In this document: positions 1 through 38,352 of the stretch, piece after piece
Layout of the letters: each line of letters begins with the position of its first letter
Position numbering within the stretch: the first letter of the stretch is position 1
Source of the DNA: Achromobacter pulmonis
GTDB taxonomy: Bacteria; Pseudomonadota; Gammaproteobacteria; Burkholderiales; Burkholderiaceae_B
Length of the DNA stretch: 64,000 nt
Reading direction: 5' to 3'
Assembly (NCBI RefSeq): GCF_902859765.1
Contig: NZ_CADIJV010000018.1
Location: 41,646-105,645 of the forward strand
The notes under the pieces: generated by a model
The model's database searches: none
Told to the model about the DNA's origin: nothing
The model's input: only the letters and a program-made list of their open reading frames with translations
Program-made: the position numbers and the translations under genes

Positions 1-945
1 GAACTCGATGCCGCCGGCCGGGCCATTGACGATGGCGTCATGCACTTCGCGGCGCACCGCGACGGCGCCCGCCGGCACGGCGGCGTTGCTGACGCCCTTG
101 GCCATGGCGATCAGGTCCGGCGTGACGCCGAAGAATTCCGACGCGGTGGCCGCGCCCAGGCGGCCGTAGGCGGTGATGACTTCGTCGAAGATCAGCAGGA
201 TGCCGTGCTTGGAGGTGATCTCGCGCAGCTTTTCCAGGTAGCCCTTGGGCGGGATCAGCACGCCGGTGGAGCCGGCCATGGGCTCGACGATGACCGCGGC
301 GATGGTCGAGGCGTCGTGCAGCGCGATGATGCGTTCGAGTTCGTCGGCCAGATGCGCGCCCCAGGCCGGCTGACCCTTGGAATAGGCGTTCTGTTCCAGG
401 TTGTGCGTATGGGGCAGGTGGTCCACGGCGGGCAGCAGCGCGCCGGAGAAGGTCTTGCGGTTGGTCGAGATGCCGCCCACCGAGATGCCGCCGAACCCCA
501 CGCCGTGGTAGCCGCGCTCGCGGCCGATCAGGCGGGTGCGCTGGCCGTCGCCGCGGGCGCGGTGATAGGCCAGGGCGATCTTCAGGGCGGTGTCGACCGA
601 TTCCGACCCCGAGTTGGTGAAGAACACGCGGTCCAGGCCCTGCGGCATGAAGCTGGCGACGGCGGTGGCCGCTTCGAATGCCAGCGGGTGGCCGAGCTGG
701 AAGCCGGGCGCGTAGTCCATGATGCCGGCCTGGCGCGAGATCGCCTCGACGATCTCCTGGCGGCCGTGGCCGGCGTTGACGCACCACAGCCCGGCCGTGC
801 CGTCCAGCACCTGGCGGCCGTCGGCCGAGGTGTAATACATGCCCTTGGCCGACGCCAGCATGCGCGGGTGCGCCTTGAATTGCTTGTTGGCGGTGAAAGG
901 CATCCACAGATGGGACAGGTCGGGCAACTCGGCGGGGGCGTTCAT
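1..945 (-). CDS. beta-alanine/omega-amino acid--pyruvate aminotransferase (partial, C-terminus off window)
   Basis: Class III PLP-dependent aminotransferase, predicted to move the amino group of beta-alanine or another omega-amino acid to pyruvate. The reading frame is open from the ATG at 945 to the left edge, giving 315 codons of a family usually about 440 long. The N-terminus reads MNAPAELPDLSHLWMPFTAN, typical of this subgroup. The segment LDGTAGLWCVNAGHGR is the usual cofactor-site region, and MAKGVSNAAVP carries the PLP lysine at about K283. The gene diverges from a MocR-type regulator across a short promoter region, the usual layout for a MocR protein and its target. Substrate preference among omega-amino acids cannot be read from the sequence. 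Confidence 0.87.
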   Translation of the reverse strand, partial: MNAPAELPDLSHLWMPFTANKQFKAHPRMLASAKGMYYTSADGRQVLDGTAGLWCVNAGHGRQEIVEAISRQAGIMDYAPGFQLGHPLAFEAATAVASFMPQGLDRVFFTNSGSESVDTALKIALAYHRARGDGQRTRLIGRERGYHGVGFGGISVGGISTNRKTFSGALLPAVDHLPHTHNLEQNAYSKGQPAWGAHLADELERIIALHDASTIAAVIVEPMAGSTGVLIPPKGYLEKLREITSKHGILLIFDEVITAYGRLGAATASEFFGVTPDLIAMAKGVSNAAVPAGAVAVRREVHDAIVNGPAGGIEF

Positions 946-1070
946 GGTGGCTCCAGGGCAGGGACAAGCGCCGGGCCTGCGCCAAGTGGGGCGGGCAGCC
1001 GGCGGGATGCGATTGATTCTGGTCCGTCCTGGGGCGAATGAAAATATACAATCCGCGCAAACCGGGCTAA

Positions 1071-1101
1071 CTGTATAGTTGCAGGCATGGCAACTGTACA
1101 G
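1071..1101. promoter_or_regulatory. inverted-repeat operator between aminotransferase and MocR gene
   Basis: CTGTATAGTTGC (1071-1082) and GCAACTGTACAG (1090-1101) form an inverted repeat with 12-bp arms, one mismatch and a 7-bp spacer. It lies 13 bp upstream of the GTG start of the MocR gene, in the divergent promoter region. It is the natural candidate for the site bound by that regulator, controlling both genes. Confidence 0.65.
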
Positions 1102-1114
1102 ATAACGTAGCGTC

Positions 1115-2533
1115 GTGATCGACTTCCAGCCTGTGCGCGCCCGTGGCCAGGCGCCGACCCTGGTGGACCAGGTGGTGGCGGCCGTGCTGCGCGCCATCGA
1201 GGCGCAATTGCTGCGTCCGGGTATGTCCCTACCTTCGGTGCGCGAGTTTGCCCGCCAGCACCAGGTCAGCACCTTCACCGTGGCCAGCGCCTACAGCCGG
1301 CTGGTGTCGCTGGGCTGGCTGGCGGCGCGGCCGGGCGCCGGCTACCGGGTGGCCTCGCCCGATGCGCCGGCACGCCGTGGCGAGCCGCAGTCGTGGGAGC
1401 CGCCGCGCCTGAATGCGGCCTGGCTGCTGTCGGACATCTTCGCGGACCATTCCATCCCCATCAAATCGGGCTGCGGCTGGTTGCCGGGCGAATGGCTCAA
1501 TGAAGAGGGGCTGCACATGGCGCTGCGCCACATGGGCCGGGTGCCGGCCATGCGCATTGCCAACTACGGCCATCCCTATGGGTACGCGCCGCTGCGCGAA
1601 ACCATCGCCGCCACGCTCGGCGCGCAGGGGATGGAGGTCGAGGTGTCGCAGGTGCTGCTGACCCAGGGCGTGACGCACGGGCTCGACATGGTGATCCGCA
1701 CCTTGCTGCGGCCGGGCGACACCGTGCTGGTCGAGCAGCCGGCCTATGCCAACCTGCTGCAGATGCTGCGGCTGGCCGGCTTGCGGGTGGTGCCGGTGCC
1801 GCGCACCCTGGACGGCCTCGATTGCGAGGCGCTGGAGCAGGCCGCCTCGCAGCACCGGCCGCGCGCGCTGTTCGTCAACACCGCCCTGCAGAACCCGTCC
1901 GGCGCCAGCATCAGCATGGCCAATGCCTTCCGCATCCTGCAACTGGCCGAACGCCATGGTCTCTGGGTGATCGAGGACGATATCTCGCGCGAACTGGCGC
2001 CGGGCGTGACGCCCATGCTGGCGGCGCTGGATGGCGGCCGCCGGGTGGTCTATCTGGGCGGCTATTCCAAGGTCATCAGCCCGTCGGTGCGGGTCGGCTA
2101 CGTGGTGGCGCACCGCGACCTGGTGCGCGACATCGCACGCACCAAGATGGCGGTGGGGCTGACCTCGCCGGAGATCATGGAGCGCATCGTGCACCAGGTC
2201 ATCCGCGAGGGCCGCTATCGTGCCCACATCGAACGCACCCGCGAACGGCTGGCCCAGGCCCACGCGTCGGTGGCGGAGCTGATGGCGCAGCATGGTTTCG
2301 AGATCTATGCGCGGCCCCGGGCCGGCCTGTTCCTGTGGGCCAAGGTGGCCGGCCAGTGGCGCGAGCGCGGCGCCAACGGCCTGGCCGGATTGGCGCTCAA
2401 GGATGGTATCTGGCTGGCGCCGGGCTCGTATTTCGAGGCCGATGAGGCCGATACGCCGTGGGTGCGCTTCAACGTGGCGTATTCGGAAGCGCCGGCCCTG
2501 TGGCGCTTCATGCGCAACGCGGGCGCGGTCTGA
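1115..2533 (+). CDS. MocR-type transcriptional regulator (GntR winged helix plus aminotransferase-like domain)
   Basis: 472 aa, the normal MocR length. Residues about 15-80 form a GntR winged helix-turn-helix (LPSVREFARQHQVSTFTVAS). Residues about 110-470 form a type I aminotransferase fold with the PLP lysine in GGYSKVISP (K319). MocR proteins bind PLP or an amino acid-PLP adduct and control a neighbouring gene, here most likely the divergent omega-aminotransferase. The start is GTG; an ATG further in would truncate the DNA-binding domain. A 31-bp inverted repeat immediately upstream is the likely operator, which also suggests autoregulation. The effector is unknown. The gene converges with folA. 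Confidence 0.88.
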   Translation: MIDFQPVRARGQAPTLVDQVVAAVLRAIEAQLLRPGMSLPSVREFARQHQVSTFTVASAYSRLVSLGWLAARPGAGYRVASPDAPARRGEPQSWEPPRLNAAWLLSDIFADHSIPIKSGCGWLPGEWLNEEGLHMALRHMGRVPAMRIANYGHPYGYAPLRETIAATLGAQGMEVEVSQVLLTQGVTHGLDMVIRTLLRPGDTVLVEQPAYANLLQMLRLAGLRVVPVPRTLDGLDCEALEQAASQHRPRALFVNTALQNPSGASISMANAFRILQLAERHGLWVIEDDISRELAPGVTPMLAALDGGRRVVYLGGYSKVISPSVRVGYVVAHRDLVRDIARTKMAVGLTSPEIMERIVHQVIREGRYRAHIERTRERLAQAHASVAELMAQHGFEIYARPRAGLFLWAKVAGQWRERGANGLAGLALKDGIWLAPGSYFEADEADTPWVRFNVAYSEAPALWRFMRNAGAV

Positions 2534-6732: not shown

Positions 6733-7176
6733 TCAGGCGGCCGCCGGGGCTTCCTGGGTATCGACGATATCCACTGAGAAGGTCAGTTCGGCGGTCTTTT
6801 CAAGCATGGCGGAAGCCGAGCAGTATTTCTCGTGCGACAACTGCACCGCGCGCTCGACCGCCGCGCGCGGCAGGTTGCGGCCGGTGACGGTGAAGGCGAA
6901 GTGGATGCGCGTGAACACCTTGGGGTCGACGTCGGCGCGGTCGGCCTGCAGTTTGACGCTGCAGCCGGTCACGGCATGGCGGCCGCGCTTGAGGATCAGC
7001 ACGACATCGTAGGCGGTGCAGCCGCCGGTGCCGGCCAGCAGCATTTCCATGGGGCGGGGCGCCAGGTTGTGGCCGCCGCCGTCCACCGCGCCGTCCATCA
7101 CGGCCACATGGCCGCTGCCGGTGCTGGCGGTAAAGAGCATGCCGTTGGGGCCGCCCCAGTCGATCGTGCATTCCAT
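6733..7176 (-). CDS. OsmC/Ohr family protein
   Basis: 147 aa from the ATG at 7176 ([15 protein letters not shown]); an in-frame start nine codons earlier is less likely, because AAGGA sits 8 nt before this one. Two conserved cysteines occur in [11 protein letters not shown] and [11 protein letters not shown], the usual OsmC arrangement for thiol-dependent peroxide reduction. The sequence is closer to the YhfA-like group ([17 protein letters not shown]) than to true organic hydroperoxide resistance Ohr. It diverges from coq7. A role in peroxide detoxification is inferred from the family only. Confidence 0.88.
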
Positions 7177-7293
7177 TTCTCGGGTCCTTGTGCTTGAGCG
7201 CAATCAATGGCTGATGATACCCGTTGCGTACAATTCCAGGCGTGAGAGCCCCGCCCCGCGTCAGGGGTGTGTGCCGCAATCCAGGAGTTGTCC

Positions 7294-7971
7294 ATGTCCC
7301 CCTCCCTGTCCCCAACCGCTCCCGCCAGATTCCCGCGCCGCGCCGCGCCGCTGGACGCACTGCTGGCCGAGGCCGACCGGGCCTTGCGCGTGCTGTCCGG
7401 CAGCGCCAGCGCCGGCCGGCCCAACCCGGCCACCGCCGAGGAGGCGCCGGACACCCTGTCGGCGCAGGAAAAGCGCCATGCGGCCGGGCTGATGCGGGTC
7501 AATCATGTGGGCGAGGTCTGCGCCCAGGCGCTGTATCGCGGCCAGGCCGCGGTGTGCCGCGAGCCCGGCCCGCGCAACCTGTTGCTCGAGGCCGCTGGCG
7601 AAGAGGTCGATCACCTGGTGTGGTGCAACCAGCGTCTGGGGGAACTGGGCAGCCGGCCCAGCCTGCTCAACCCGGTCTGGTATGCCGGCTCGTTCGCGCT
7701 CGGCCTGCTGGCCGGCTACGCGGGGGCGCCGCGCAACCTGGGTTTCATGGCCGAGACCGAGAAGCAGGTCGAGGCGCATCTGGAGGGGCATTTGCGCACG
7801 CTGCCGCAACAGGATGCGCGCTCGCGCCAGATCGTGCAGAAGATGAAGGAAGACGAGGCCCAGCACCGCGCCAGCGCCGAAGCGGCCGGCGGAGTGCCGT
7901 TGCCCGCCCCGGTCAAGGCCGCCATGCGCGCGATGTCCAAGGTCATGACGACCACAGCGTACTGGATCTGA
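7294..7971 (+). CDS. coq7: 2-polyprenyl-3-methyl-6-methoxy-1,4-benzoquinone monooxygenase (Coq7)
   Basis: 225 aa. Di-iron hydroxylase performing the late C6 hydroxylation in ubiquinone synthesis, replacing UbiF. The metal ligands are visible: E in [24 protein letters not shown] in [13 protein letters not shown], the E of [16 protein letters not shown], and EDEAQH near the C-terminus. I chose the ATG at 7294 because AGGAG stands 6 nt before it; an in-frame start nine codons earlier has no such site. About 35 N-terminal residues are low-complexity and precede the conserved domain. An 813-bp gene-free gap follows. Confidence 0.95.
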
Positions 7972-8073
7972 GGGCGGCGGCCCGGCGGCACCCCCCTGGG
8001 GCATCAAAATGTTGCGATGCGCAATAATTGCCGCAATCTGGTGCCGGGCGCACCTTTCTGGTGCAAATCATAG

Positions 8074-8146
8074 GGCGGGATTACCCGGCCAAGGCTAGGG
8101 TAAGTCCGCAAGGGGTAAACCCGTTTGGCAATAACCCGCCTTTTTT
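8074..8146 (+). terminator. structured RNA element ending in a U-run (coq7 terminator or small RNA)
   Basis: GGCGGG(A)TTA at 8074-8083 pairs with TAACCCGCC at 8132-8140, followed directly by TTTTTT (8141-8146). Inside, GCCAA (8088-8092) pairs with TTGGC (8125-8129), and GGGT/ACCC can form an inner hairpin. A simple terminator would not need 50 nt inside its closing helix, so this may be a folded RNA domain. It lies about 100 bp after coq7, and I found no clear promoter of its own. Confidence 0.45.
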
Positions 8147-8183
8147 GAAAAACATTGCTGGGCGCGGCTTTGCGGGCGATGAC

Positions 8184-8216
8184 AGCCTGCGTTGCGGCAA
8201 AAAAGCAACGCAGGCT
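8184..8216. repeat. perfect 12-bp inverted repeat
   Basis: AGCCTGCGTTGC (8184-8195) and GCAACGCAGGCT (8205-8216) form a perfect hairpin with a 9-nt loop containing six A. No T-run follows on either strand, so it is not a standard terminator. Confidence 0.6.
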
Positions 8217-8245
8217 CCGAGAGCCTGATGCGCGCAAAAAAAATC

Positions 8246-8274
8246 TTGCATCGCACAAAAAAACCCGATACTAT
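8246..8274 (+). promoter_or_regulatory. sigma-70-type promoter of the small-RNA candidate
   Basis: TTGCAT (8246-8251), 17-bp spacer, TACTAT (8269-8274). The spacing is ideal and the boxes are close to consensus. The predicted transcript start is about 8281-8283, with no coding frame in the following 145 nt. Confidence 0.65.
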
Positions 8275-8281
8275 GCATCTC

Positions 8282-8426
8282 ATCGGATGTTGAAACGCAG
8301 TCGGCGCGGTGCCAAACCCCGACAGCGCAGTGAGCGAAAGCGGCTCCCAACATGCCACGGTTGTCTCCTCCACCCTCCTCCTTTGGTGGATTTAGCCCGA
8401 GATCTCACGATCTCGGGCTTTTTTTT
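8282..8426 (+). ncRNA. candidate small RNA with anti-Shine-Dalgarno loop
   Basis: A compact transcription unit of about 145 nt between a good promoter and a strong terminator. Predicted folding: ATGTTG (8287-8292) pairs with CAACAT (8348-8353), enclosing GTCGG/CCGAC (8300-8304/8319-8323). A second hairpin, TCCACC/GGTGGA (8369-8374/8385-8390), presents the loop CUCCUCCUUU, a perfect complement of a Shine-Dalgarno sequence. A second CUCCUCC lies just before it (8365-8371). Pyrimidine anti-SD loops of this kind are known in translation-repressing small RNAs of several proteobacteria. I do not recognise the family by name. Both the RNA identity and its targets are inferred. Confidence 0.6.
8394..8426 (+). 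terminator. strong intrinsic terminator of the small-RNA unit
   Basis: AGCCCGAGATC (8394-8404) and GATCTCGGGCT (8409-8419) form a perfect 11-bp stem with loop TCAC, followed by a run of T to 8426. Confidence 0.9.
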
Positions 8427-8784
8427 AAGAAAAATCAACGCGTCCCCAATTTCCTGAGCGCGGCGTCGAAGCGCGTTGGGGCAGGGGGCGGGAAAGGATT
8501 TCAGACGCGGCTGCCCTCCTTATGACGGACTCCGTGTTTTCCCTTGGATATTTCGCGTGCGCAGGGGCGGAAAGCTCTACAATCAATTCATGAAATCCGT
8601 ATTTCCGCGGGCCAATGGCCGCGTCGCGGCACACCCCTCAACCGGGGACGCTGCGCCGGCCCGGTCCGCGGCCGTTACGTTCTGTCCCGGTGAATTGCAC
8701 TTCCTTATTCCTGCCATATATGGGCGTTACACCTGCCGTCGATAATGGCCGGCCTGTCTCGATAGACCAACCAGAGGTGACCCT

Positions 8785-9888
8785 GTGACCTGGCTGTACA
8801 TATGCGTGGTCGCGTTCATGGTGGGGGGACTCATCGTGGCGTCGGAGCGCTGGCATGGCGCCTTCACCGGCGACAGCGATCTCAACAAGCCGCAAGCGAA
8901 CCATTCGCGCGCCACGCCGCGCGTGGGCGGACTGGCCGTGCTGGCCGGCACGCTCATGGGTCTGCTGGTGCTGGGGCCCGACAACATGACCCTGACCTGG
9001 CTTTGGCCGGCATTGTTCGTTTCGGCGCTGCCGGTGTTCGTGGCGGGGCTGCTCGAAGACATCACCAAGGACATTGGCGCCAGCAAGCGCCTGCTGGCCG
9101 CCTTCGCGTCCGCGGCGATCGCCTGGTGGCTGCTGGGCGGCGTCAGCCGCGTCGGCATGGCGCCGGTGGACTACATCCTGTCGTATTGGCCGGTTTCCCT
9201 GATTTTCACCATGTTCGCGGTGGGTGGCTGTACCCATGCGCTGAACATCGTCGATGGCATGAACGGGCTGGCCGGCATGGTCGCGACGCTGATGGCGGTG
9301 TCCATCAGCCTGGTCGCGCTGCAGGTGGGCGATGTGCCGATCTTCCTGGTGGCCGCGGCCCTGGCATCGGCCACGCTCGGCTTCCTGGTGTGGAACTTCC
9401 CCTTCGGGCGCGTGTTCCTGGGGGACGGCGGCGCTTACTTCCTGGGCTTCATGCTGGCCGAGCTGGCGGTGCTGCTGGTGGTGCGCAATCCGTCGGTGTC
9501 GCCGTTCTACGCCTTGGCGGTGTTGTTCTACCCCGTTTTCGAAACCGGTTTCTCGATCTGGCGCCGCCGCTTCAAGCGCGGCGTGCCGGTGGACCAGCCG
9601 GATGCCCTGCACCTGCATCAGTTGGTGTTCCGCCGGCTGGTGCGCGTGACCTTCAGCCGCGGACGCCGCCACGCGGTGCCGGCGCTGTGCAACGCCCTGG
9701 CTTCGCCCTACATGTGGGTCCTGGCCCTGATCGGCCTGGTGCCGGCCACCATCTGGTGGGACAACGCCTGGGCGCTGAGCGCCAGCCTGCTGGTCTTTGC
9801 CGGCGTGTACATCTGGCTGTATGCGCGCCTGGTGTCCTGGCGCCGGCCAGGATGGCTGCTGCTGCCGTCCGTCCTGCGGGCCGATTAA
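8785..9888 (+). CDS. MraY/WecA-family undecaprenyl-phosphate glycosyl-1-phosphate transferase
   Basis: 367 aa, polytopic inner-membrane enzyme expected to load the first sugar-1-phosphate (typically an N-acetylhexosamine) onto undecaprenyl phosphate. Family motifs are PRVGGLAVLAG near residue 50, LNIVDGMNGLAGM in the middle and LGDGGAYFLGF; the HLHQLVFRRL segment is the carbohydrate-recognition loop. The start is GTG, with GAGGTGA immediately upstream. It is the first gene of a same-strand surface-glycan cluster running to 20135, and probably starts its lipid-linked oligosaccharide. The exact sugar donor is unknown. Confidence 0.9.
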   Translation: MTWLYICVVAFMVGGLIVASERWHGAFTGDSDLNKPQANHSRATPRVGGLAVLAGTLMGLLVLGPDNMTLTWLWPALFVSALPVFVAGLLEDITKDIGASKRLLAAFASAAIAWWLLGGVSRVGMAPVDYILSYWPVSLIFTMFAVGGCTHALNIVDGMNGLAGMVATLMAVSISLVALQVGDVPIFLVAAALASATLGFLVWNFPFGRVFLGDGGAYFLGFMLAELAVLLVVRNPSVSPFYALAVLFYPVFETGFSIWRRRFKRGVPVDQPDALHLHQLVFRRLVRVTFSRGRRHAVPALCNALASPYMWVLALIGLVPATIWWDNAWALSASLLVFAGVYIWLYARLVSWRRPGWLLLPSVLRAD

Positions 9889-36672: not shown

Positions 36673-38352
36673 TCAGGCGCGGCCGATGGCGCGGTTGACG
36701 GCCGACGCCACCGCGTCGGGTTGGAAGGCGCGCCAGCGCGCGGCGACGTGCTGGTCGGGCCGGATCAGATAGGCAGTGCCCGTCAGCGCGTCGTAGCGCT
36801 GGGCCAGCAGCCCTTCGGCATCGACGACGCGCGCCAGGTCTTCCGGCCAGCCGGCGGCGTTGCCGCCGGGACCGGCTACCAGCACCGGCGTGACCGGCAC
36901 GGCGGCCAGGCGCAGCGCGCGCAGGGCCTGCAGCGTTTCACTATCGGGCGGGGCATCGCCGCAGAACAGCGCCAGCGTGAAGCCGGCGTCCAGGTGCGAC
37001 AGCCACCACGGCGCGTCGGCGGTGCCGCGCACCGGCGCGTCCAGCGCCACCGCGCCGGGCCGCATGCGGCCGGCGAAGGTGTCGGTGTCGGGGGTGTTTA
37101 GCGGCGAGTCCACATAGGTGGCGGGCAGCGACAGGCGGCCGCTGTTGACCAGCGCGCGTGCGAACGCATGGGTACGGGCCAGGTTCAGCACCGCGTTGCG
37201 GAAACTGCGGCTGATGTCGCTTTTGGGGGTGATGAAGTCGGTGGCGCGCGACGAATTCAGGATGTTTTCGTCGGCGGCATGCTCGCGTTCGGCGGCGTAG
37301 CTGTCGATCAGCGCTTCCGGCGCCTGGCCGGCCAGCACCAGGCGCAGCTTCCACGCCAGGTTCTCGGCATCCTGCACGCCGCTGTTGGCGCCGCGCGCGC
37401 CGAACGGCGAGACGCGGTGCGCCGAGTCGCCGGCGAACACCACGCGGCCGTGGCGGAACTTGTCCATGCGTTCGCAGGCGAAGGTGTAGACGCTGACCCA
37501 TTCCAGGTCGAACTGCGCGTCCGGGCCCAGCAGGGCGCGGATGCGCGGCAGCACGTTCTCGGGTTTGACGGCCTCGACCGGGTCGGCGTTCCAGCCCAGC
37601 TGAAAGTCGATGCGCCAGACATTGTCGGGCTGCATGTGCAGCAGCACCGATTGATTGGGGTGGAAGGGCGGGTCGAACCAGAACCAGCGCTCAGCCGGGA
37701 AGTCGGCCTTCATCTTGACGTCGGCGATCAGGAAGCGGTCGCGGAAGATGCGGCCGTGGCTTTCCTGGCCGATCAGCTTGCGCACCGGCGAGCGGGCGCC
37801 GTCACAGGCCACCAGCCAGTCGGCACGCAGCGCGTAGCCGCCCTCGGGCGTGTCGATCGACAGCACCACGCCGTCGCCCGCCTGTTCCAGGCCCACCACC
37901 TTGTTCTTCCAGCGCAGGTCGATGTTCGGTTCCTGGCGCGCCTGCTCGTACAGATAGCCTTCAGCGTAGTACTGCTGCAGGTTGATGAAGGCGGGGCGGC
38001 GGTGTCCGGGTTCGGGCAGCAGATCGAAGCGCCAGACCTCCTGGTCGCGGAAGAACACCTTGCCGACGTTCCACGACACGCCCTTGTCGACCATGCGCTG
38101 GCCGACGCCGAGGCGGTCCCAGATTTCGAGGGTGCGCTTGGAAAAGCAGATGGCGCGCGAGCCGGTGGACAGGCGGTAATCGTCGTCCAGCACCACCACC
38201 CGCACGCCCTGGCGCGCCAGATCCAGCGCCGTGGTCAGGCCGACCGGACCGGCACCCACCACCACCACCGGGTGGCGCGCCTGGGTCGCGGCGGCCTGGT
38301 CGGCGTGCTTCTCATAGGCGAACTCCATCGCCTGAAAGTCGATGTCTCCCAC
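36673..38352 (-). CDS. FAD-dependent aromatic monooxygenase (MhpA/PheA-TfdB-like)
   Basis: 559 aa. Class A flavin hydroxylase: FAD motif VVVVGAGPVGLTTALDLA near residue 28-45, the GD motif RVVFAGDSAHRVSPFGARGANSGVQDAENLAWKL split around 300-325, and the C-terminal thioredoxin-like domain of the MhpA group. Likely hydroxylates a phenolic acid with NAD(P)H. The start is GTG with AGGAGA 5 nt before it. It sits in an apparent operon with an MBL-fold protein upstream and DUF2783 downstream. Substrate unknown; 3-hydroxyphenylpropionate-like and homogentisate-pathway precursors are possibilities. Confidence 0.9.
   Translation of the reverse strand: MGDIDFQAMEFAYEKHADQAAATQARHPVVVVGAGPVGLTTALDLARQGVRVVVLDDDYRLSTGSRAICFSKRTLEIWDRLGVGQRMVDKGVSWNVGKVFFRDQEVWRFDLLPEPGHRRPAFINLQQYYAEGYLYEQARQEPNIDLRWKNKVVGLEQAGDGVVLSIDTPEGGYALRADWLVACDGARSPVRKLIGQESHGRIFRDRFLIADVKMKADFPAERWFWFDPPFHPNQSVLLHMQPDNVWRIDFQLGWNADPVEAVKPENVLPRIRALLGPDAQFDLEWVSVYTFACERMDKFRHGRVVFAGDSAHRVSPFGARGANSGVQDAENLAWKLRLVLAGQAPEALIDSYAAEREHAADENILNSSRATDFITPKSDISRSFRNAVLNLARTHAFARALVNSGRLSLPATYVDSPLNTPDTDTFAGRMRPGAVALDAPVRGTADAPWWLSHLDAGFTLALFCGDAPPDSETLQALRALRLAAVPVTPVLVAGPGGNAAGWPEDLARVVDAEGLLAQRYDALTGTAYLIRPDQHVAARWRAFQPDAVASAVNRAIGRA

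Follow-up and report, generated by a model that had tools for sequence, protein, structure and literature searches.

The region between coq7 and a glycosyl transferase gene of Achromobacter pulmonis carries a pair of promoter hexamers, a CU-rich hairpin and an intrinsic terminator. This raises the question which RNA is encoded here and which part of it meets the targets. The window refers to the whole stretch of 64,000 nucleotides analysed (assembly GCF_902859765.1, contig NZ_CADIJV010000018.1, positions 41,646 to 105,645, forward strand).

Organization of the element

The element and its neighbours in the window are as follows.

6733..7203, minus strand: OsmC-like gene (PF02566, E = 1.4e-18), a neighbour in many relatives
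7267..7971, plus strand: coq7 (PF03232, E = 2.7e-43), a neighbour common to S17 and relatives
8246..8251, plus strand: -35 hexamer TTGCAT, read from the sequence, with the letters of the published S17 promoter
8269..8274, plus strand: -10 hexamer TACTAT after a spacer of 17, read from the sequence, as in the published S17 promoter
8282..8361, plus strand: 5' leader of the long form, its start A placed 7 nt after the -10 hexamer by analogy with S17
8362..8426, plus strand: core sRNA (RF02278), the expected processed form equivalent to S17S, with a putative processing site taken from B. pertussis
8362..8369, plus strand: predicted 5'-terminal pairing site UGUCUCCU inside Site 1, from the fold and the count of complements in the genome
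8369..8390, plus strand: hairpin 1, UCCACC/GGUGGA, with loop CUCCUCCUUU (8375-8384, Site 2), from sequence and fold
8394..8426, plus strand: intrinsic terminator, 11 bp stem and U-run, from a terminator scan
8785..9888, plus strand: glycosyl transferase family 4 gene (PF00953, E = 2.5e-29); S17 also adjoins a glycosyltransferase gene

In hairpin 1, positions 8369-8374 pair with 8385-8390 around a loop of 10 nt, and the first CUCCUCC (8365-8371) overlaps the stem. The loop letters CCUCCUUU are presumably those of the 3' end of 16S rRNA. The terminator arms 8394-8404 and 8409-8419 are followed by a U-run ending at 8426. A sequence-only reading had described this hairpin with its 10-nt loop, the preceding CUCCUCC and an 11-bp terminator with U-run, and all were recovered with the same letters and places, the terminator also by terminator scan. 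The same reading called the promoter near-consensus. The two hexamers and the 17-nt spacing are indeed present, but the term was overstated, as 7 of 12 positions agree; a consensus promoter scan over 7400-9300 listed the terminator (8394-8419) and no promoter.

The core (8362-8427, 66 nt) forms two hairpins (-28.6 kcal/mol, z = -6.51) and leaves its first seven nucleotides unpaired, and the long form (8282-8427, 146 nt) folds at -55.7 kcal/mol (z = -3.55). By analogy with B. pertussis, the stable species is probably the processed form of about 65 nt rather than the transcript of about 145 nt. Conservation was analyzed over 11 aligned rows, nine obtained by exact core match, one by the Rfam model and one being the window itself. 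The share of the window letter averaged 0.51 ahead of the promoter, 0.85 across the promoter itself (8246-8274), 0.74 in the leader (8282-8350), 0.98 at 8351-8361, 0.95 in the terminator and 0.30 beyond it; the value of 1.00 in the core is not independent because nine rows were chosen by exact core match. An inverted repeat (GCCTGCGTTGC/GCAACGCAGGC, 8185-8215) lies between coq7 and the promoter; it has no U-run and falls in a poorly conserved stretch.

The element is an S17 orthologue of family RF02278

The covariance search against Rfam, which had been proposed as a check, gave two matches in the window, one tRNA and RF02278. The RF02278 match (8362-8426, plus strand, model positions 1-64) scored 69.2 bits with E = 6.9e-12, above the curated cut-off of 50, and the element has two hairpins, the second being the terminator, along with CU-rich unpaired stretches. 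NmsR (RF02877) was not among the two matches of the window, and its cut-off was not reached. In the whole genome RF02278 was found only once (E = 1.5e-13). RF02278 scores above the cut-off in 186 of 200 genomes sampled from the family, representing 41 of 43 genera, and unlike the core value of the 11 rows this presence is an independent measure of conservation. Eight of the 14 genomes that lack it belong to one genus with genomes of 0.7-0.8 Mb. None of the 14 control genomes searched for RF02278 gave a match. Copy number varies among genera: genomes of one genus (g34) possess 3-5 copies and most genomes of another (g43) possess two, while three loci (L022, L096 and L112) show two tandem copies about 380-540 nt apart.

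S17 of Bordetella pertussis has a glycosyltransferase gene on one side and coq7 on the other; its mapped promoter is TTGCAT-17-TACTAT, and transcription begins at an A 7 bp further on (PMC11722255). The window shows the same neighbours, the same promoter hexamers and the same layout of core and terminator. Given the RF02278 match, the same hexamers and spacing, the A start and the coq7 and transferase neighbours, the element is therefore an orthologue of the studied RNA. It is a known RNA, S17 (CT_433), and the locus itself is low in novelty; the earlier view that no named family could be assigned no longer stands. Achromobacter xylosoxidans A8 is one of the species in the alignment of Fig. 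3 in the S17 preprint, according to its legend (PMC11722255). S17 differs in its total length, reported as 190 nt against about 145 nt in the window, where the leader is shorter. In B. pertussis it is described as being under BvgAS control.

As reported for B. pertussis, RNase E cuts S17 to 67 nt and Hfq is needed (PMC11722255, PMC12235514). Deletion of S17 raised 91 candidate genes (92 according to the abstract), and 70 of these are complementary to S17 in or close to the ribosome site; direct pairing represses BP2158, chiefly through Site 1, as supported by compensatory mutations (PMC11722255). A second group described the same RNA as CT_433, a hub of the Hfq network in RIL-seq with 36 chimeric partners and a target motif resembling the Shine-Dalgarno sequence (PMC12235514). 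The sequence-only reading of a translational regulator of many mRNAs thus gains support from the orthologue, through deletion, complementarity, compensatory mutations and RIL-seq. Growth inhibition of E. coli upon cloning was reported for other RF02278 members (PMC5688073, PMC4603805), while S17S left the exponential growth of E. coli BL21 unimpaired, against the 'toxic' family name (PMC11722255).

Four RNAs of B. cenocepacia, ncS03, ncS05, ncS27 and ncS62, are similar in belonging to RF02278 and in their two hairpins, CU-rich stretches and predicted targets in transport and metabolism (PMC5688073, PMC4603805). They differ in that B. cenocepacia is described with several RF02278 copies while this genome has one. 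NmsR of Neisseria (RF02877) likewise has CU-rich unpaired stretches facing ribosome sites, but it is described as a separate Rfam family in tandem arrangement. The B. cenocepacia RNA ncS35 is reported to have two forms by processing, as expected for the element, and to attenuate growth (PMC5760752); it was considered as a lead and dropped as an identity, its authors reporting no Rfam hit (PMC5760752).

The 5' end as predicted pairing site

The octamer AGGAGACA complements nucleotides 1-8 of the RNA in its expected processed form. The pattern AGGAGACA-N1-7-ATG was found at 80 places in the genome, while the permutations of same composition AGGAGAAC and AGGAGCAA were found at 14 and 21; reading AGGAGACA, AGGAGAAC and AGGAGCAA backward gave 0, 1 and 3. 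The 80 places are pattern sites and not confirmed starts, and 3 of the first 30 head frames of at most 67 codons. The pattern GGAGGAGAC-N2-9-ATG accounts for 14 of 182 GGAGGANNN sites. One of the 14 is the antisense of the sRNA itself, and all but one of the remaining 13 precede frames of at least 151 codons, including two TctC and two Peripla_BP_6 receptors. In a sample of 464 kb, made of 20 stretches and the window, none of the 64 triplets follows AGGAG before ATG as often as ACA does (6/62), and ACA also leads after GGAG (16/253). Across 284 guessed starts of this sample, Site 1 formed three runs of at least 9 against a control mean of 0.12.

The complement of the loop (Site 2) showed no excess over flank-shuffled controls at the same 284 guessed starts, and its long form, AAAGGAGGAG-N2-9-ATG, does not occur in the genome. 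The loop therefore leaves no ribosome-site mark here, though it may still act in regulation. Based on these counts, the RNA probably pairs mainly through the 5' end of its processed form and not through the loop. The element had earlier been named after an anti-Shine-Dalgarno loop; such a loop exists, but the sequence evidence favours the 5'-terminal site as the main site of pairing.

Predicted target genes

The first 30 of the 80 AGGAGACA sites in contig order were taken, the three short frames were dropped and the remaining 27 were searched in Pfam. Transport-related genes made up 15 of the 27, namely nine TctC, two Peripla_BP_6, one phosphonate-binding protein, one ABC ATPase and two MFS members. 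One is a phenylacetic acid catabolic protein (PF05138), nine are mostly metabolic or redox enzymes and two showed no family at the search threshold. The published S17 targets include many transporters and paa genes (PMC11722255), and the predicted target types agree with them in kind. In its predicted complementarity to the ribosome sites of transporter genes and catabolic genes, too, the element matches what is expected of an S17 orthologue. The window contains one more candidate.

36673..38352, minus strand: candidate target predicted from sequence, a GTG-started frame of 559 codons with AGGAGACAACC directly before the start

Octamer signature across genomes

The ratio AGGAGACA:AGGAGCAA was compared in a panel of 46 hand-picked genomes. 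In 27 betaproteobacterial (beta) genomes that possess the RNA it was 1366:474; 21 of these genomes are above 1 and the other six show no excess. In seven genomes of the family without RF02278 hit it was 23:45, in seven gammaproteobacterial (gamma) genomes with the gamma form described below 57:69, and in five gamma genomes without hit 33:34. A rank test between the 27 beta genomes and the seven family genomes without hit gave p = 1e-4, a comparison which is confounded because the hit-less genomes are small and include one that is only 84% complete, and because the panel was hand-picked. Within genus g23, genomes with and without the RNA showed 92:111 and 5:13, a difference which is not significant (p = 0.22). 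The presence of the RNA and the excess of AGGAGACA are thus linked by correlation only.

Gamma relatives form a probable sister family

RF02278 was searched in 369 genomes of the class. It was detected in 103 at E <= 0.001, of which only 3 were above the cut-off and 100 lie outside the order, where the best hit reached 48.7 bits. The gamma set comprises 40 of these 100 genomes with one stretch each and 45 hits in total; they are mostly high-ranked, but the ranking was not followed exactly, as some higher genomes were passed over and one genome (G462) was taken for its tandem hits. In 20 of the gamma loci no Rfam family reached its cut-off at the position of the hits. Among the other 20, RF02278 matches were present in 19, all below 50 bits, so that by score the gamma group does not qualify as RF02278 members; two loci (L209 and L224) showed competing weak Rfam matches with an E-value similar to that of RF02278. 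One of the 40, L223, was rejected as a relative, its hits fitting anti-hemB better. This locus possesses five weak head-to-tail anti-hemB (RF02837) matches below the cut-off at 880-1602 (plus strand), about 150-170 nt apart.

The gamma core usually reads CTCCTCCATCCTCCTTTGGTGG, with a GC-rich terminator behind it. Site 1 was found in 41 of the 45 gamma hits and CCTCCTTT in 35. An alignment of 39 of the 45 hits was folded by RNAalifold, omitting three hits of L223, one of L197 without U-run, and L194 and L189, whose core is that of L188. It showed two hairpins, and all 8 modelled terminator pairs change on both sides. A combined alignment in which the first stem was shifted by three columns was excluded from the counts. 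When 32 beta and gamma sequences were aligned by fitting to a model, which leans towards structure, 99.5% of cells pair and both-side changes occur in 82 cells against 25.3 in shuffles. The terminator holds 79 of the 82. In stem 1 three pairs are invariant, another varies on one side, and a further pair is CG in 23, UG in 6 and UA in 3 sequences.

A covariance model built from the 39 gamma sequences alone (R1) found the window element as the sole match in its genome, with 58.1 bits and E = 1.0e-10. Below about 40 bits R1 lacks specificity, and hits of that strength were rejected as evidence; they include PrrF (9 matches), one NmsRb locus, SorX and mmgR. The PrrF RNAs (L235-L242) are hit weakly because they have UAUCUCCUCAUC and a terminator in common with the model. 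Reciprocal detection, fold and the shared neighbourhood described below all relate the gamma group to RF02278, and the gamma elements are likely a sister family of it. In 800 kb of one gamma genome (G324), the triplet TCA, expected after AGGAG from its own Site 1 with an assumed 5' end, was found at 1 of 227 AGGAG-N3-N1-7-ATG sites, so that the gamma form leaves no matching signature at ribosome sites in this sample. A literature search at the level of listed entries found neither gamma relatives nor a link to rplM, and rplM, ribosomal protein and Gammaproteobacteria are absent from the main text of the S17 paper (PMC11722255).

Gene neighbourhood and the rplM-rpsI operon

Neighbours of the gamma loci were identified by tblastn. 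In 29 of 40 loci, rplM and rpsI are situated downstream on the same strand, the rplM alignment starting 95-417 nt past the sRNA, while COQ7 was found in 11 of 40 and OsmC in 5 of 40. At least 120 beta loci were found by the exact core 26-mer. Among the matches listed for 120 of them, rplM occurs in 53, 52 at 87-349 nt and one at 1021, along with rpsI in 48, OsmC in 96, COQ7 in 70 and glycosyl transferase in 34. For 30 loci of the window's own family, its own locus included, the matches listed contain COQ7 in 27, OsmC in 26, the transferase in 21 and rplM in none; such absences mean little because many of the stretches end short. Pfam searches on sample loci confirmed COQ7, L13 and S9. Two named Bordetella loci (L041 and L049), found by the core 26-mer, show COQ7 and the transferase adjoining the sRNA. 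In B. cenocepacia, ncS27 is reported at BCAL3348a/BCAL3349, with BCAL3348 among ribosomal protein genes (PMC5688073, PMC4603805), a position which fits the order on the rplM side. The simplest reading is an ancestral order of osmC/coq7, sRNA and rplM-rpsI that was broken downstream in the window's family.

Other features were also observed near these loci. A tandem glycine riboswitch adjoins the gamma sRNA in L199 (906-1089, minus strand) and L204 (1430-1611, plus strand), with OsmC close by, and in L204 a GcvT gene lies downstream of the riboswitch. A contig titled as a Klebsiella pneumoniae MAG (L094) contains a locus of betaproteobacterial type with COQ7, OsmC and rplM and is probably mislabelled or a mixed bin.

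Alternative explanations

Two alternatives concern how the RNA meets its targets. It is rather unlikely that the RNA pairs mainly through the loop CUCCUCCUUU and thereby masks ordinary Shine-Dalgarno sequences broadly. The loop is complementary to AAAGGAGG, CCTCCTTT is kept in most gamma hits (35/45), and Site 2 was assigned to 2 of the 11 listed conserved targets of B. pertussis; Site 1, however, was assigned to the other 9 of the 11 (PMC11722255), and in this genome the 5' site shows an excess while the long loop complement is absent. A stronger but still doubtful contender explains the AGGAGACA excess by translation preference, by common ancestry of transporter genes or by another sRNA. TctC is one paralogous family, accounts for 9 of the 27 genes and may inflate the count; the C/T-rich sRNA CT_521 of B. 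pertussis is reported to have a similar target motif (PMC12235514) and could share the signature; and 6 of 27 genomes carry the RNA yet show no excess. Against this, the permutations of same composition are about 4 and 6 times rarer than AGGAGACA, the genes other than TctC belong to many families, and the octamer is exactly the complement of the first eight nucleotides of the expected processed RNA.

The other two concern the nature of the locus. The element might have arisen or act as a leader or attenuator of rplM-rpsI, with early termination yielding the sRNA as a by-product, and rplM does follow on the same strand in 29/40 gamma loci and, among the matches listed, in 53/120 beta loci. This is quite improbable. 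The gene downstream in the window encodes a glycosyl transferase, and S17 is reported to act in trans (PMC11722255). A pair resembling TTGACA/TATAAT with at most 2 mismatches was found in 22 of 44 gamma stretches upstream of the element and in 4 of 44 gaps towards rplM. These four promoter-like sites between terminator and rplM (L186, L188, L189 and L194) speak against the attenuator; the promoter scan of the 44 gap stretches gave a mean of 4.36 against 5.12 in shuffled sequence, only modestly better, and is therefore a weak point. That the locus encodes a small protein is hardly credible. S17L of B. pertussis has a 32-residue frame, and frames starting in the leader exist in the window as well, but these shift between relatives and most of them continue through the terminator; a conserved leader peptide was rejected on account of the shifts. 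The earlier statement that the stretch is free of coding frames holds only so far, as the leader-start frames are unconserved while a 100-codon frame (8155-8457, plus strand) does cross the element.

Proposed mechanism and implications

The reading as a whole, an RF02278 member orthologous to S17, with its own promoter and terminator, cut by RNase E, helped by Hfq and blocking ribosome sites by pairing of its 5' end, is held with high confidence. Transcription would begin at its own promoter and end at its own terminator. RNase E would most likely cut just before U8362, as judged from S17, giving an RNA of about 65 nt. With the help of Hfq, its free 5' end (UGUCUCC-U) would pair with ribosome sites reading AGGAGACA, and translation of uptake and catabolic genes would thereby be blocked. 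Promoter use, RNase E processing, the need for Hfq and repression by pairing were demonstrated in B. pertussis and would apply here by analogy.

A wider proposal is somewhat better supported than its negation. An older sRNA lineage, shared with Gammaproteobacteria, would be situated beside coq7/osmC and upstream of rplM-rpsI, with S17/RF02278 as one branch. In Burkholderiales the 5' octamer would serve as a genome-wide address, each genome carrying its perfect complement at tens of ribosome sites (80 here); most of the genes examined at such sites serve uptake or catabolism.

An RNA that was unassigned is now a known and studied regulator, so its functions can be carried over and tested. The octamer at ribosome sites would yield a list of targets in Burkholderiales genomes. 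With the gamma relatives upstream of rplM-rpsI, the age, the original role and the target turnover of an anti-Shine-Dalgarno sRNA would become testable across two large groups.
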